Source: Pseudomonas fluorescens (GTDB lineage Bacteria > Pseudomonadota > Gammaproteobacteria > Pseudomonadales > Pseudomonadaceae). From it: a stretch of 64,000 bases of DNA. The notes beneath the pieces were generated by a model, which was not told the origin of the DNA, ran no database searches, and was given only the letters and a program-made list of their open reading frames with translations. The stretch spans positions 5,270,001-5,334,000 of the forward strand of contig NZ_CP038438.1 of NCBI RefSeq assembly GCF_004683905.1, given 5' to 3'. The translations under genes were made by a program, and so were the position numbers. Shown in pieces: positions 45,510 to 56,563 of this stretch (position 1 is its first letter; the number at the start of each line of letters is the position of its first letter).

Positions 45510-45595
45510 TGTGGGAGCGGCTTGCTCGCGAAGAGGGCGTGTCAGATACGAGCTCGTTGATGACACACCGCATTCGCGAGCAAGCCCGCTCCCAC
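45510..45595. repeat. REPIN (family A)
   Basis: Inverted copies of TGTGGGAGCGG-CTTGCTCGCGAA flank a spacer with GTGTCAG.../...TGACAC inner arms. One arm has lost a G (GCGGCTTG for GCGGGCTTG). Confidence 0.85.
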
Positions 45596-45667
45596 AGGGG
45601 TACTGAGTGATTGCTGAAATTTTGTGCAGCCTTCGGGACTTATTGAAGATTTGATGGAGTTGTGTGT

Positions 45668-47588: not shown

Positions 47589-48305
47589 TTACACCACCAT
47601 CGACACCGCCAACGGCAGGAACACCGCCGTGGCCACGCCCATCAGACTCATCGCCAGCGCCGCGAAGGCGCCGCACTCATCGCTTTCCTGCAACGCCACC
47701 GAAGTGCCGACCGCGTGTGCGGTCATGCCCAGCGCCATGCCACGCGCCTCAGGGCTGTGCACGCCGAGCCGGGTCAGCAACGCCGGACCGAAGATCGCGC
47801 CGATCACCCCAGTGATCAGCACGAACACCGCCGCCAGCGCCGCCACGCCACCGATCTGCTCGGCCACCAGCATGGCAATTGGCGAGGTCACCGACTTCGG
47901 CGCCATGGTCATCAGAATCATGTGCTCGGCACCGAACCACCAGCCGAGCAACACGCCCATGCCCGTGGCGACGACGCCGCCTATCACCAGCGTAGTAAAA
48001 ATCGGCCAGAACAATTGGCGGATGCGTTTGAGGTTGAGATACAGCGGCACCGCCAGCGCCACCGTCGCCGGGCCCAGCAGAATGCTGAGGATTTCGGTGC
48101 TCTTGCGGTACTCGGCGTAGGTCAGGCCGCAGCCGACCAGCACGCCGATCACCACCAGCATCGAGACCAGCACCGGTTGCAGAAAGATCCAGCGGGTTTT
48201 CTCGAACGCCGCCAGTACCAGTTGATAGGCACCGAGGGTGATGCCGATGCCGAACAGCGGATGATGGATCACCGAAGCCCAGGCGCCTTGCCAATCGAAG
48301 AGCAT
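47589..48305 (-). CDS. lrgB: LrgB family membrane protein
   Basis: The 238-residue protein has about seven membrane segments and the LrgB/CidB family pattern (LLGPATVALAVPLYLNLKRI; VTSPIAMLVAEQIGG; GMALGMTAHAVGTSVALQ). LrgAB/CidAB were first described as holin/antiholin-like modulators of murein hydrolase activity and lysis, and LrgAB of some bacteria is a pyruvate or glycolate transport system. The ATG overlaps the lrgA stop as TGATG. Confidence 0.88.
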   Translation of the reverse strand: MLFDWQGAWASVIHHPLFGIGITLGAYQLVLAAFEKTRWIFLQPVLVSMLVVIGVLVGCGLTYAEYRKSTEILSILLGPATVALAVPLYLNLKRIRQLFWPIFTTLVIGGVVATGMGVLLGWWFGAEHMILMTMAPKSVTSPIAMLVAEQIGGVAALAAVFVLITGVIGAIFGPALLTRLGVHSPEARGMALGMTAHAVGTSVALQESDECGAFAALAMSLMGVATAVFLPLAVSMVV

Positions 48306-48667
48306 CACGACTCCTCCGAGTGCGGCGCATGGCGCTTGACCAGGCGTTGCATCAGCACCCCGGCGAAGGCCATCGACAGGATCAACGACAACACCAGCGC
48401 GCCGACAATGGCCCAGAAGTCAGCGGCAATGTCGCTCGCATAAACCATCACGCCCACCGCCGGCGGCACCAGCAGCAGCGGCAGATAACGCAACAGACTG
48501 CCGGCCGCGAGGTTCAGCGGCTCGCCGACTTCACCGCGAATGATCAGGAACACCAGCAACAGCAGCAGACCGATGATCGGCCCCGGCAGCACCGGCAACA
48601 GCAAATGGTTGAGTGCCGTGCCGAGCAATTGGAACAGCACCAGCATGGTCAGGCCACGTAACAACAT
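48305..48667 (-). CDS. lrgA: LrgA/CidA family holin-like protein
   Basis: The 120-residue protein has about four membrane segments and the LrgA/CidA motifs LLPVLPGPIIGLLLLLVFL and LPLLLVPPAVGVMVY. I chose the ATG at 48667, preceded by GGGGGAG; the frame continues upstream to 48727 without conserved sequence. It forms a two-gene unit with lrgB. The 180-bp gap to the MaoC gene shows no clear operator for a LysR-type regulator, and no regulator gene is adjacent. Confidence 0.87.
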   Translation of the reverse strand: MLLRGLTMLVLFQLLGTALNHLLLPVLPGPIIGLLLLLVFLIIRGEVGEPLNLAAGSLLRYLPLLLVPPAVGVMVYASDIAADFWAIVGALVLSLILSMAFAGVLMQRLVKRHAPHSEES

Positions 48668-48847
48668 CAGACATCTCCCCCCGCAAGTCCTCGGCATTAT
48701 AAGCACGGCAGCGCTATGGATCGGCATTCGCCAAAAGCATGGTCGGTTGACCGGAGCAAATCGCCATGTTGATCTACAGTGGTTCGCAGGGCGGTCAAAT
48801 CCCCCACCTGAAAAACTATAAAACCGATGAACCCAAGGAGAGTCTCA

Positions 48848-49310: not shown

Positions 49311-49340
49311 GATGCGAAACAGCGCACGCTGTTTCGCATC
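49311..49340 (+). terminator. Probable terminator after the MaoC gene
   Basis: GATGCGAAACAGCG and CGCTGTTTCGCATC are perfect 14-bp arms around a 2-nt centre, 8 bp after the stop. GTTTTCC follows 4 bp later, a modest U-run. Confidence 0.55.
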
Positions 49341-49413: not shown

Positions 49414-51141
49414 ATGCGCCCACTCGCTTCTCTTGCACCCCTTGCCCTGACCCTGATGCTCACCGCGTGCGGCGACGGCGAATCGCTGTTGCCCCCGGAT
49501 GCACGGCTGCCGGACGGCGGACGCTATCGCGGTGAACTGGTGAACGGCTTGCTGCAAGGCCAGGGCCGGGTCGACTACCCCAACGGCAGTTGGTACGCCG
49601 GGCAGTTCGACAAGGGCCAATGGCATGGCCAGGGCGAGTGGCACGGCAGCAACGGCGAGGTCTATCGCGGTCAGTTTCAGCAGGGTCTGTTCGATGGCCA
49701 GGGCAGCCTGACCACCAACGCCAGCAGTTACACCGGCGGTTTCAAGCAGGGCCGCCGCGATGGCGAAGGCACCCTCAAAGAAAACGCCATGACCTACCGT
49801 GGCGAGTTCAAGGCTGACCAGTATTCCGGGCTGGGCCGTCTGGAAATGGACGACGGCAGCTCCTATCAAGGCCAGTTCGCCCACGGCAAACCCAACGGCG
49901 AAGGCCAGCGCGGCGACTCTAGCGGCAATACCTTCAGCGGCCATTTCGTCAACGGCCAGCTCGAAGGCAATGGCACATTCAACAGTGCCGATGGCGACAT
50001 CTATGTCGGCGGCTTCAAGAACAGCCAGCTGCACGGCAAGGGCCGCTACGAGAACGCCGACGGCGACGTGTGGCTCGGCCAGTTCAAGGAAGGCGCGCTG
50101 ACCGGCAAGGGCGAACTGATCGGCGCCGACGGCAGCCATTACATCGGCTTCTTCAACGACTGGCGCTTCAGCGGTCAGGGCCGCTTGAACCTGTCTGACG
50201 GCAGCTTCTACATCGGCGGGTTCGACGGCGACAGCTACGCCGGACGCGGCACTCTGGTGCTGACTGACGGCACCGTGCTCAGCGGTACCTGGATCAACGG
50301 CCAGCGCGTACGTGACGCCGACGGCAAGCTGTTGCCCGACACCCTCGAACTCGGCCTTCTGGCCCAGGGCCGCCTACTCGATAACGCGCTGGCCGCCGTG
50401 CCCGCCTCGACGCCGGCAGTCGAGCTGTACACCCTGACCCTCGGTGGCGACGGCAAGCAAAGCGTGTTCCTGCGCGAGTCCGACTACGTCGCCAACATGC
50501 TCACCACACGTTTCGGTGCCTACGGCCAGATTCGTCTGGTCAACCACCGCGACCACCTCGTCGACCGGCCGATGGCCACTCGCGAGAACCTGCGCCGCGC
50601 CGCGCAGACTTTGGCTGAACGCAGCGGCCCGGAAGACCTGGTGTTCATCTACCTGACCAGCCACGGCACCGCCGAACACGAGCTGGTGCTCGATCAGCCG
50701 CGCATGGAGCTGGCCGATCTGCCCGCCGACGAACTCGCCGCCGTGCTCGCGCCACTGAAAAATCGCGACAAGGTGATCGTGATTTCATCGTGCTATTCCG
50801 GCGGTTTCATCCCCGCGCTGAAAGATGAGCGCACACTGATCATGACCGCCTCGCGTGCCGATCGCGTGTCGTTCGGTTGCTCGGAAGAAGCCAACTTCAC
50901 CTACTTCGGCGACGCCCTGTTCGCTCAGGCCCTGAACCAGACCGACGATCTAGAGCAGGCTTTCAAACTGGCCAAGGCCACCGTCGCCGAGCGCGAACTG
51001 GCGGATAACTTCGAAGCCTCGGAGCCACAGATCTGGGCACCGAAAACCGTGCTGGCACACTGGCAACTGCTGCGTAAACAGCAGGCCAGAAAAGCGTTGC
51101 AGAGTGCTGCATTGAACGACGGAGCAACAAACAGCAACTAA
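49414..51141 (+). CDS. MORN-repeat lipoprotein fused to a C13 (legumain/caspase-like) peptidase domain
   Basis: The 575-residue protein has a lipoprotein signal (lipobox LTAC, Cys19), then eleven MORN repeats of about 23 residues and a partial twelfth between residues 36 and 298 (pattern Y-x-G-x-F-x-x-G-x-x-x-G-x-G). A C-terminal alpha/beta domain follows (about 335-555). This domain has the His-Cys dyad of clan CD peptidases: His417 in YLTSHGTA and Cys460 in VISSCYSGGF, each after a hydrophobic strand as in legumain and caspases. Substrate and partners are unknown. It would act anchored to a membrane. No strong ribosome site precedes the ATG. Confidence 0.87.
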   Translation: MRPLASLAPLALTLMLTACGDGESLLPPDARLPDGGRYRGELVNGLLQGQGRVDYPNGSWYAGQFDKGQWHGQGEWHGSNGEVYRGQFQQGLFDGQGSLTTNASSYTGGFKQGRRDGEGTLKENAMTYRGEFKADQYSGLGRLEMDDGSSYQGQFAHGKPNGEGQRGDSSGNTFSGHFVNGQLEGNGTFNSADGDIYVGGFKNSQLHGKGRYENADGDVWLGQFKEGALTGKGELIGADGSHYIGFFNDWRFSGQGRLNLSDGSFYIGGFDGDSYAGRGTLVLTDGTVLSGTWINGQRVRDADGKLLPDTLELGLLAQGRLLDNALAAVPASTPAVELYTLTLGGDGKQSVFLRESDYVANMLTTRFGAYGQIRLVNHRDHLVDRPMATRENLRRAAQTLAERSGPEDLVFIYLTSHGTAEHELVLDQPRMELADLPADELAAVLAPLKNRDKVIVISSCYSGGFIPALKDERTLIMTASRADRVSFGCSEEANFTYFGDALFAQALNQTDDLEQAFKLAKATVAERELADNFEASEPQIWAPKTVLAHWQLLRKQQARKALQSAALNDGATNSN

Positions 51142-51168: not shown

Positions 51169-51810
51169 ATGTACTTGACGCCTCAGCACGTATTGCTTGC
51201 CGGAGCCACCGGACTGACCGGTGAACATCTGCTCGACCGTTTGCTCAACGAGCCGACGATCACCCGCGTGCTCGCCCCGTCCCGTCGTCCATTGGCGGAG
51301 CATCCGCACCTGGAAAACCCGGTGGGCGACCCACAAGCGTTTCTGCCGCAACTCAGTGGTCGCGTCGATATCGCCTATTGCTGCCTCGGCACCACCATCA
51401 AACAGGCGGGTTCCGAAGCCGCGTTCCGCGCGGTGGATCTGGACATGGTGGTGGCCTTCGCCAAACGTGCGCGGGAGATGGGCGCGCGGCACCTGATCGT
51501 GATCAGCGCGCTGGGCGCCGATCCGAAATCGTCGATTTTCTACAACCGGGTCAAAGGCGAGATGGAGCAGGCGTTGCGCGCGCAGGACTGGCCGCAACTG
51601 ACCATCTGCCGGCCATCGCTGTTGCTGGGTGATCGTACCGAACCGCGCTTGGGCGAACAGCTGGCGGCGCCGTTTTCCAAACTGATTCCCGGCAAGTACC
51701 GCGGCATCGAAGCCTGCCAACTGGCCCGGGCGATGTGGCGCCTGGCGCTGGAAGAACAGGATGGGGTGCGGATCGTCGAGTCGGATGAGTTGCGCAAGCT
51801 CGGCAAGTAA
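51169..51810 (+). CDS. NAD(P)-binding oxidoreductase-like protein (atypical SDR)
   Basis: The 213-residue Rossmann protein begins with [20 protein letters not shown], a glycine-rich dinucleotide loop, followed by [31 protein letters not shown], the [10 protein letters not shown] segment with the Tyr-Lys-like pair, and [13 protein letters not shown]. It resembles atypical short-chain dehydrogenases related to HTATIP2/TIP30. Substrate unknown. AGGGAG lies upstream of the ATG. It is 27 bp after the MORN-C13 gene and probably shares its transcript. Confidence 0.88.
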
Positions 51811-51821
51811 ACACCGTACTT

Positions 51822-51937
51822 TGTGGCGAGGGGATTTAGCGAAACGTCGCACCGCCCCGATCGGCTGCGCAGCAGTCGTCGTTTTTCAGATTTTGGGGGC
51901 GCTGCGCACCCCATCGGGGATAAATCCCCTCGCCACA
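51822..51937. repeat. REPIN (family C with a 16-nt variant arm)
   Basis: The left arm reads GGCGAGGGGATTTA, then GCGAAACGTCGCACCG, then CCCCGATCGG, where family C has only T between GATTTA and CCCCGAT. The right arm is the ordinary ATCGGGGATAAATCCCCTCGCC. The same variant arm occurs at 56430-56480. Confidence 0.75.
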
Positions 51938-54213: not shown

Positions 54214-54292
54214 AGTCGACCTCGTAAAACATGGCCGCAGGTTAGCGTAGGGTGGGAAAAATCGCACCTGGTGTTTCGCCTGCGCCGACGCC

Positions 54293-54356
54293 TTCGCGAG
54301 CAAGCCCGCTCCCACAAGGTTGGCGCTGATCCTGTGGGAGCGGGCTTGCTCGCGAA
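54293..54356. repeat. REPIN (family A), compact
   Basis: TTCGCGAGCAAGCCCGCTCCCACA and its inverted copy are separated by about 16 bp, between the mpl start and the end of the regulator gene. Confidence 0.9.
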
Positions 54357-54370
54357 TGGCGCGACGCGGT

Positions 54371-56332: not shown

Positions 56333-56480
56333 TTGTGGTGAGGGGATTTATCCCCGATGGGTTGCGAAGCAGCCCCAATCAAACCAACGTGGCTTCTTAG
56401 ATTCACCGCGTACACCGGATTTACGACTGCTGCGCAGCCGATCGGGGCGGTGCGACGTTTCGCTAAATCCCCTCGCCACA
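56333..56480. repeat. REPIN (family C with a 16-nt variant arm)
   Basis: The left arm is ordinary (GAGGGGATTTATCCCCGATGG). The right arm is the variant with CGGTGCGACGTTTCGC inserted between ATCGGGG and TAAATCCCCTCGCC. It occupies about half of the 479-bp divergent region between the activator and exaC. Confidence 0.75.
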
Positions 56481-56563
56481 AGGGGTGCATCTGGGCGATT
56501 GGCAGTCAGCATCCTCCAGCCATCGGCGCATTGCAATGCTGGCAAGACCAGCCGGTCACTGGC

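Follow-up and report, generated by a model that had tools for sequence, protein, structure and literature searches.

What does a predicted lipoprotein that joins a stack of MORN repeats to a legumain-like peptidase domain do in Pseudomonas fluorescens, and what is the stack for? The question is raised by one gene in the window, the 64,000-nucleotide stretch of P. fluorescens DNA (contig NZ_CP038438.1) that was analyzed here. The preliminary description of this DNA proposed that the MORN stack could sense the state of the membrane or envelope and control the protease, and it named death programs among the roles of such proteins. The gene was followed up by profile searches, structure prediction, comparison with relatives and a survey of the literature.

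Gene features

The gene spans positions 49414..51141 of the window on the + strand and encodes 575 amino acids without an internal stop codon. Residues 1-19 (49414..49470, + strand) form a predicted signal peptide that ends in the lipobox LTA-Cys19, Cys19 being the cysteine predicted from sequence to be lipidated. The motif agrees with the earlier assignment as a lipoprotein, and the protein is expected to be exported. The MORN solenoid, residues 37-300 (49522..50313, + strand), comprises 12 beta-hairpins, with repeats starting at residues 38, 61, 84, 106, 128, 151, 174, 197, 220, 243, 266 and 289. The 11 repeats counted earlier were recovered as full repeats (nine of 23 residues and two of 22), and a partial twelfth was added to them. 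The Pfam profile PF02493 (MORN) matched at E 4.4e-29, with 9 stretches passing individually. A search for tandem repeats in the DNA returned one short array and nothing more.

The C13 (legumain-like) peptidase region, as modeled alone, covers residues 302-575 (50317..51138, + strand). Pfam PF01650 (Peptidase_C13) matched at E 9.1e-40; the whole-protein score was 137.2 bits, the cut-off being 22.8. The clan CD dyad lies where it had been placed: the codon of the catalytic His417, in a TSHG motif, is at 50662..50664 and that of the catalytic Cys460, in a SCYSGG motif, at 50791..50793 (both + strand), and both residues are kept in 55/55 rows of the C13 alignment. The C14 profile (PF00656, metacaspase/orthocaspase) gave no match to the protein at E up to 1, and NCBIfam offered nothing beyond a match to another caspase subfamily that fell below its threshold (34.3 bits against 140). 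By profile, dyad motifs and predicted clan CD fold the protein is a member of family C13, with a putative peptidase activity. A reading as a pseudo-enzyme is rejected at the level of the alignment because the dyad is invariant.

The 6.14 Mb single-contig genome holds one C13 gene, the one described here, and a separate C14 gene at 596 kb. A MORN profile search of the genome matched this gene alone, through just 2 of its repeats; the search is thus insensitive, and the statement that this is the only MORN gene holds at that threshold only.

Predicted structure

The C13 region (302-575) was modeled alone from 55 aligned rows, and the full-length protein was modeled with AlphaFold2. The model of the C13 region has a mean pLDDT of 97.0 and a pTM of 0.93. 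In a Foldseek search of the PDB, ranks 1-17 were all legumain (best E 1.9e-10; TM-scores by query length 0.54-0.59, identity 16-18%), followed by caspase-7 at rank 18, with plant legumains and further caspases lower. VIA-align, in which rows within 1 Z were treated as ties, scored plant metacaspase-4 and legumains at Z of about 20, with rmsd 2.5-2.9 over about 205 residues, and the GPI transamidase subunit PIGK/Gpi8 at Z 18.2-19.0 (rmsd 4.7-5.1). The absence of a family from these match lists was not taken as evidence. The predicted fold of the C13 region thus matches legumain and caspase folds, as the preliminary description had anticipated.

The full-length model has a pLDDT of 92.9 and a moderate pTM of 0.64, so the angle between arm and protease is unsure. 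Its best Foldseek match was Trypanosoma MORN1 (6t4r, E 2.4e-21), with legumain appearing from rank 35. The 12 beta-hairpins of residues 37-300 are seen in this model, the last of them short. The catalytic domain is followed by a terminal helix only (residues 544-574), and the model has no legumain-type prodomain.

Substrate pocket

The S1 pocket of legumain is formed by Arg44, His45, Ser216 and Asp231 (PMC4357240). In an HMM alignment, legumain Ser216 corresponds to S486, which is Ser in 55/55 rows, and Cys219 to C489; the codons of the invariant run S486-F487-G488-C489, aligned with legumain Ser216 to Cys219, are at 50869..50880 (+ strand). The position of legumain Asp231 is D500 in the window protein, but across the 55 rows it is R in 29, D in 10, E in 7, K in 4, Q in 4 and G in 1. 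The Glu two residues before the catalytic Cys of legumain, presumably Glu187, is replaced by Ser in 54/55 rows. Helix alpha-1, aligned by eye and without superposition, puts R354-E355 on legumain Arg44-His45; E355 is present in 55/55 rows and R354 is R in 34/55. The window protein therefore keeps three of the four listed S1 residues, but family-wide only the Ser is invariant, so that specificity for Asn is not to be assumed. The invariant Glu355 on alpha-1 of the C13 family brings to mind the acid on alpha-1 of TbMCA2 and MALT1, which belong to Arg/Lys-specific families (PMC4357240).

Conservation and distribution

A match to the gene was found in 298/298 same-genus genomes, its own included, with a weakest best E of 4.7e-125. 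Median dN/dS, from a simple counting method applied to 25 close orthologues of 93-97% identity (25 pairs), was 0.053 overall; taken separately, the MORN part gave 0.064 and the C13 part 0.039. The gene is a core gene of the genus under strong purifying selection. A recent horizontal gain is rejected, since the gene is present in all 298 genomes and the SDR-like gene downstream is kept in 4/4 same-family stretches and in P. aeruginosa. Among mobile elements, 7/72,556 plasmid records and 2/50,697 phage records gave a match; three of the 7 plasmid records are 3.7-4.1 Mb long, and the two plasmid records that were examined have ordinary housekeeping neighbors.

Beyond the genus the distribution is uneven. 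In samples that also contain same-genus genomes, the C13 profile matched 52/293 genomes of the order (241/293 being without a match), 30/274 of the class (24 above the cut-off) and 46/299 of the phylum (43 above the cut-off). The C13 gene is thus dispensable in many lineages, and one genome of the same family (G317) has no match. The family labeled f35 has a match in 97/119 genomes. The query from its genus g115 has an identical counterpart in an Acinetobacter record and clusters with A. baylyi, and on these grounds f35 is taken to be Moraxellaceae and g115 Acinetobacter.

The 55-row C13 alignment consists of the window protein and 54 of 63 C13 references, nine redundant same-genus rows being omitted, as were weak class and phylum matches. 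Identical in all 55 rows, besides the two dyad residues, are F352, E355, A388, D408, G418, G463, the S486-F487-G488-C489 run, F498, G499 and E528. When loss of the dyad among relatives was looked for, the dyad proved to be kept in every aligned row and in every close relative fetched. Its pattern was present in 30/30 close and 29/29 divergent same-genus loci (the N-terminal fragment L086 being left out of the latter) and, with the best matches taken first, in 29/29 loci of the order (52 genomes matched), 29/29 of f35 (97 matched) and 80/80 named relatives (the best 80 of 81). It was present in 18/21 loci of the class, where 29 loci were drawn from 30 matched genomes and 8 were not recovered at E 1e-6, and in 17/18 new loci of the phylum (46 genomes matched); the failures were all distant proteins.

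Membrane anchors

For the lipobox, 71 loci of the same genus or family were considered, 3 had no usable reading frame and 68 were counted; the lipobox was found in 65/68, the other 3 being fragments. Among the 65, position +2 after the lipobox Cys is G in 58 and D in 7, and position +3 is D in 52, E in 9 and another residue in 4. In 56/65 the lipid-bearing Cys and the catalytic His are 398 or 399 residues apart; the remaining distances are 353 (2 proteins), 376 (2), 377 (1), 390 (1), 400 (2) and 422 (1). Six of these nine off-length proteins differ by about one or two MORN repeats, so most of the larger departures are close to whole repeats. The length of the solenoid appears from these sequences to be nearly, though not absolutely, fixed.

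Other relatives carry other anchors; for these, the counts of membrane segments and MORN repeats come from simple hydropathy and pattern criteria. Of 19 MORN loci fetched from outside the Pseudomonadaceae, a single hydrophobic segment precedes the repeats in 17, and in 2 there is none at the threshold used; a lipobox-like motif was flagged in 2 of the 19 (L131 and L132). In 29/29 fetched f35 loci and in 79/80 named loci of Acinetobacter and Moraxella (the best 80 of 81), three or more hydrophobic segments were counted and MORN repeats were absent, the exception being a short reading frame of Moraxella catarrhalis. The Acinetobacter baumannii protein has five hydrophobic segments when the threshold is set at 1.1 instead of 1.6, which takes in the first segment. 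Its predicted inside loops carry 4, 2 and 3 Lys plus Arg residues and the outside ones 0, 0 and 1, a positive-inside pattern that would place the protease in the periplasm, outside the inner membrane.

A C13 tree was built from 65 chosen loci, ten near-duplicates having been dropped. On it the multi-helix form requires 2 changes (19.1 on average with shuffled labels), of which the short Moraxella frame probably accounts for one; the MORN form requires 4 (21.6 on average with shuffled labels). Anchors are therefore strongly clustered and exchanges few; the root is a midpoint root and several forks are open, so the tree gives no direction of exchange. As judged from these sequences, the C13 domain is the constant part of the family and the anchors vary: lipobox and MORN repeats in Pseudomonadaceae, usually one hydrophobic segment and MORN repeats in other gammaproteobacteria, and a helix bundle without MORN repeats in Acinetobacter.

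Gene neighborhood

A 13-bp RNA hairpin (49311..49340, + strand; z -3.8) lies between the upstream MaoC-type gene and the peptidase gene and is a possible terminator; a generic terminator scan yielded 3 sites where 3.8 were expected. A gene for an NAD(P)-binding, SDR-like protein begins 27 nt past the peptidase stop codon (51169..51810, + strand) and is possibly co-transcribed. It follows the peptidase gene in all four same-family stretches compared (L258, L259, L265, L266) and in a record of P. aeruginosa. Upstream, the MaoC-type gene and LrgA/LrgB recur in three of these four stretches (not L265) and in P. aeruginosa, and a YceK-type lipoprotein, ubiX and mpl are downstream in two of the four and in P. 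aeruginosa. LrgA and LrgB, of a holin-like family, lie two and three genes upstream of the peptidase gene in the window, on the opposite strand and with a gene between. In P. aeruginosa, PA4016 most likely forms a single-gene unit (PMC3406104).

The neighbors found in the window are absent from 21 out-of-family stretches, apart from an aldehyde dehydrogenase match of 29% identity. No neighbor family occurred in more than 3 of 20 loci; those in 3 were all from f35/Moraxellaceae, and the rest were pairs. Genomic context thus gives no support to a role in a death program or in defense.

Comparison with known proteins

With legumain the window protein shares the Pfam family, the clan CD fold, the His-Gly and Cys-x-Ser-Gly motifs, Ser216 and Cys219 (as S486 and C489) and the Asp at the Asp231 position (D500). 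It differs in lacking, in the model, the C-terminal activation peptide and LSAM domain, and in having MORN repeats and a lipobox. The orthologue WIK44125.1 (P. aeruginosa 'peptidase C13'; 63% identity over 566 columns, neighbors in identical order) has the same lipobox, MORN repeats, C13 domain and dyad, but Arg in place of Asp at the residue 500 position. We take it to be PA4016 from the gene order in this analysis. QCP22175.1 (A. baumannii 'peptidase C13 family protein') has 39% identity over 238 aa, the same dyad and a predicted periplasmic location, whereas its anchor consists of about five hydrophobic segments and it has no MORN repeats; it matches the C14 profile at 8e-6, which the window protein does not.

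MORN-metacaspase fusions from aquatic metagenomes (PMC4933709) likewise have MORN repeats N-terminal to a caspase-fold domain, but that domain is C14, the repeats number 1-4, and six proteins are tabulated; the available text of that paper mentions neither a C13 domain nor a lipobox. MORN1 of Trypanosoma, Toxoplasma and Plasmodium has a MORN solenoid too, but is eukaryotic and carries its repeats without a protease domain. The annotation as peptidase C13 already exists in databases; the architecture is unusual and apparently unstudied. No description of the lipobox-MORN-C13 architecture, its function or its substrate was found among the literature matches listed, a search that mostly left subscription papers outside, and no report of peptidase activity of this protein or of AbrP was found in the literature examined.

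Reported phenotypes of relatives

The Acinetobacter form of the C13 protein is probably AbrP, an identification made by name and by the single C13 match per g115 (Acinetobacter) genome, not by locus tag. A. baumannii AbrP, a C13 family peptidase by description, is reported in five papers citing the original study to raise membrane permeability when deleted (PMC11615727, PMC5346588, PMC10203620, PMC8768575 and PMC10218405, the last of which prints the name as arp), and abrP is elsewhere described as a gene lowering permeability (PMC8003822). On susceptibility the citing papers contradict each other: the deletion mutant is given as less susceptible in PMC11615727 and PMC5346588, and the reverse is given in PMC10203620 and PMC10218405. 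The A. baumannii protein has no MORN repeats and is 39% identical, so the AbrP phenotype may not carry over. For the Pseudomonas form, an insertion in PA4016 in a delta-exoU strain attenuated killing of Caenorhabditis elegans, but according to the available part of the report a second allele in the wild-type background gave no attenuation and the authors dropped the gene (PMC3406104). PA4016 also appears, with values of 0.19 and <0.05, in a table of envelope proteomes from P. aeruginosa PAO1 strains with plasmid-borne pump genes (PMC7835679). A C13 gene of A. baumannii has been listed as one of the predictors of early polymyxin exposure (PMC4872528). From the AbrP, PA4016 and polymyxin reports we infer, with moderate confidence, an envelope protease with a maintenance role. 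The earlier statement that the lipoprotein form is not functionally described stands for the MORN form in the literature searched; it does not extend to the MORN-less relative, very probably AbrP, which has the permeability phenotype.

MORN repeats are characterized as protein-protein interaction modules that dimerize or oligomerize in solved cases, and the available text on TbMORN1 reports no binding to membranes or vesicles, although the protein bound single phospholipids (PMC7725318). On this analysis MORN repeats seem better seen as protein-binding, oligomerizing modules than as membrane sensors, and membrane sensing is rejected as their default reading on account of the TbMORN1 result. 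Together with the MORN-less relatives that have the same catalytic domain, that result also weakens the proposed sensing of the membrane by the present stack.

Interpretation

The favored reading, to which we give a probability of roughly 0.55, is an envelope-tethered periplasmic C13 endopeptidase that contributes to barrier upkeep and whose MORN stack forms a rigid arm for protein binding. Lipidated Cys19 would tether the C13 cysteine endopeptidase to the envelope on its periplasmic side. The stack, a stiff row of 12 hairpins whose length is estimated from ordinary beta-strand spacing at roughly 11-12 nm, would act as an arm that sets how far the protease stands from its membrane; a partner or substrate protein would probably dock on this arm. 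Barrier upkeep would then include limited cleavage of an envelope protein by the protease; the envelope role is suggested by homology to AbrP. A further-reaching version, which we regard as speculative and doubtful, sees one periplasmic C13 enzyme of Pseudomonadota that serves envelope maintenance on exchangeable anchors, the Pseudomonas MORN rod with its nearly fixed length acting as a ruler from one membrane to peptidoglycan or the other membrane. Its proposed cut after a basic residue rather than Asn comes from the invariant Glu355, which would line S1.

Two other readings keep the protein in the envelope. The MORN lipoprotein might first of all be a scaffold that organizes an envelope complex, with the C13 domain only trimming a partner or itself; the oligomerization of MORN repeats in solved cases (PMC7725318) and the near-fixed length of the solenoid are consistent with this, but the catalytic domain is more constrained than the MORN part and is kept where MORN repeats are absent, which makes the scaffold rather unlikely. 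A clan CD enzyme usually accepts a single kind of residue at P1. That P1 selectivity is agreed for legumain, caspases, metacaspases and paracaspases (PMC4357240) and fits limited cleavage better than general degradation of misfolded periplasmic proteins. Such a quality-control role, to which the lack of a recurring partner gene and the polymyxin exposure data (PMC4872528) could be referred, is further opposed by the many genomes of the order that do without the gene, and we consider it unlikely.

Quite improbable is a caspase-like executioner or defense protease, activated by stress or phage and killing the cell, with the MORN stack as sensor. It would draw on the caspase-type fold, a weak PADLOC caspase match (E 3.9e-5) and the proximity of LrgA/LrgB, which recurs in other members of the family. 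Against it stand the presence of the gene throughout the genus, its strong constraint and predicted export, the few plasmid and phage matches with housekeeping neighbors in two of the plasmid records, and the absence of the neighbors outside the family; LrgAB is on the opposite strand behind another gene and is not beside the peptidase gene in genome G091 (L265). The death program mentioned in the preliminary description accordingly loses ground, given the 298/298 presence and the want of recurring neighbors. Least probable of all is a transpeptidase or ligase like GPI transamidase or the asparaginyl ligases, which would couple an envelope amine to a peptide or protein. Asparaginyl ligases and GPI transamidase occur in the structural list (8imx_K, Z 19.0, 217 residues, rmsd 4.7), and only the terminal helix follows the catalytic domain, but legumains and metacaspase-4 score equally well or better at lower rmsd. 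We know of no amine substrate or sorting signal for such a reaction.

A protease of the caspase and legumain clan is thus a core gene of a genus that spans common laboratory, soil and clinical species. The finding speaks against the default reading of MORN repeats as membrane sensors, and the occurrence of a MORN arm and of a membrane bundle on one enzyme amounts to a natural experiment on the purpose of the anchor. If the envelope role of the tethered endopeptidase is true, clan CD proteolysis in these bacteria would be tied to upkeep of the barrier, not to cell death.

Genomic neighborhood

The LrgB and LrgA family genes (holin/antiholin-like) are located at 47589-48700 of the window on the reverse strand, upstream of the C13 peptidase gene and on the opposite strand to it. 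Their position relative to the C13 gene is kept in three of four same-family stretches and in one P. aeruginosa record; the link observed is positional. Palindromic REP-like repeats are dispersed in intergenic regions of the window (45569-45599, 51821-51937, 54282-54367 and 56334-56481) and include a 59-nt perfect inverted copy pair at 51821-51879 and 56423-56481. One match to Peptidase_C14 (caspase domain) was found elsewhere in the genome (L269, G000:C1:596295-596903, reverse strand, E 9.6e-20).

Two records labelled as plasmids, CP109682.1 of P. aeruginosa (L270) and CP040048.1 of A. baumannii (L271), carry the C13 gene amid apparently ordinary chromosomal genes. The gene order of the P. 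aeruginosa block in CP109682.1 is that of the window. Both records may represent split chromosomes or assembly choices.

Variant copies and distant relatives

In four genomes (G014, G060, G109 and G133) the match to the studied gene is split into two pieces of a single open frame, a pattern resembling the in-frame loss of MORN repeats. The match in genome G080 also consists of two pieces, each in a separate reading frame, and that in genome G144 (locus L087) has extra residues in the C13 part of the alignment and a TAG inside the matched span. The irregularities in G080 and G144 may be true changes or sequencing errors.

Some C13-like matches from the class and phylum samples, such as loci L138-L140, lie in open frames that span about 500-3300 aa; in some genomes, several weak matches per genome lie in very large frames, with up to eight in genome G1092. 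Shorter C13-like proteins of about 250-460 aa were found in the same samples at loci L151-L155 and L158-L166. They have neither MORN repeats nor several hydrophobic segments, and those included in the tree are placed mostly on branches of their own; they possibly constitute a different C13 subgroup.
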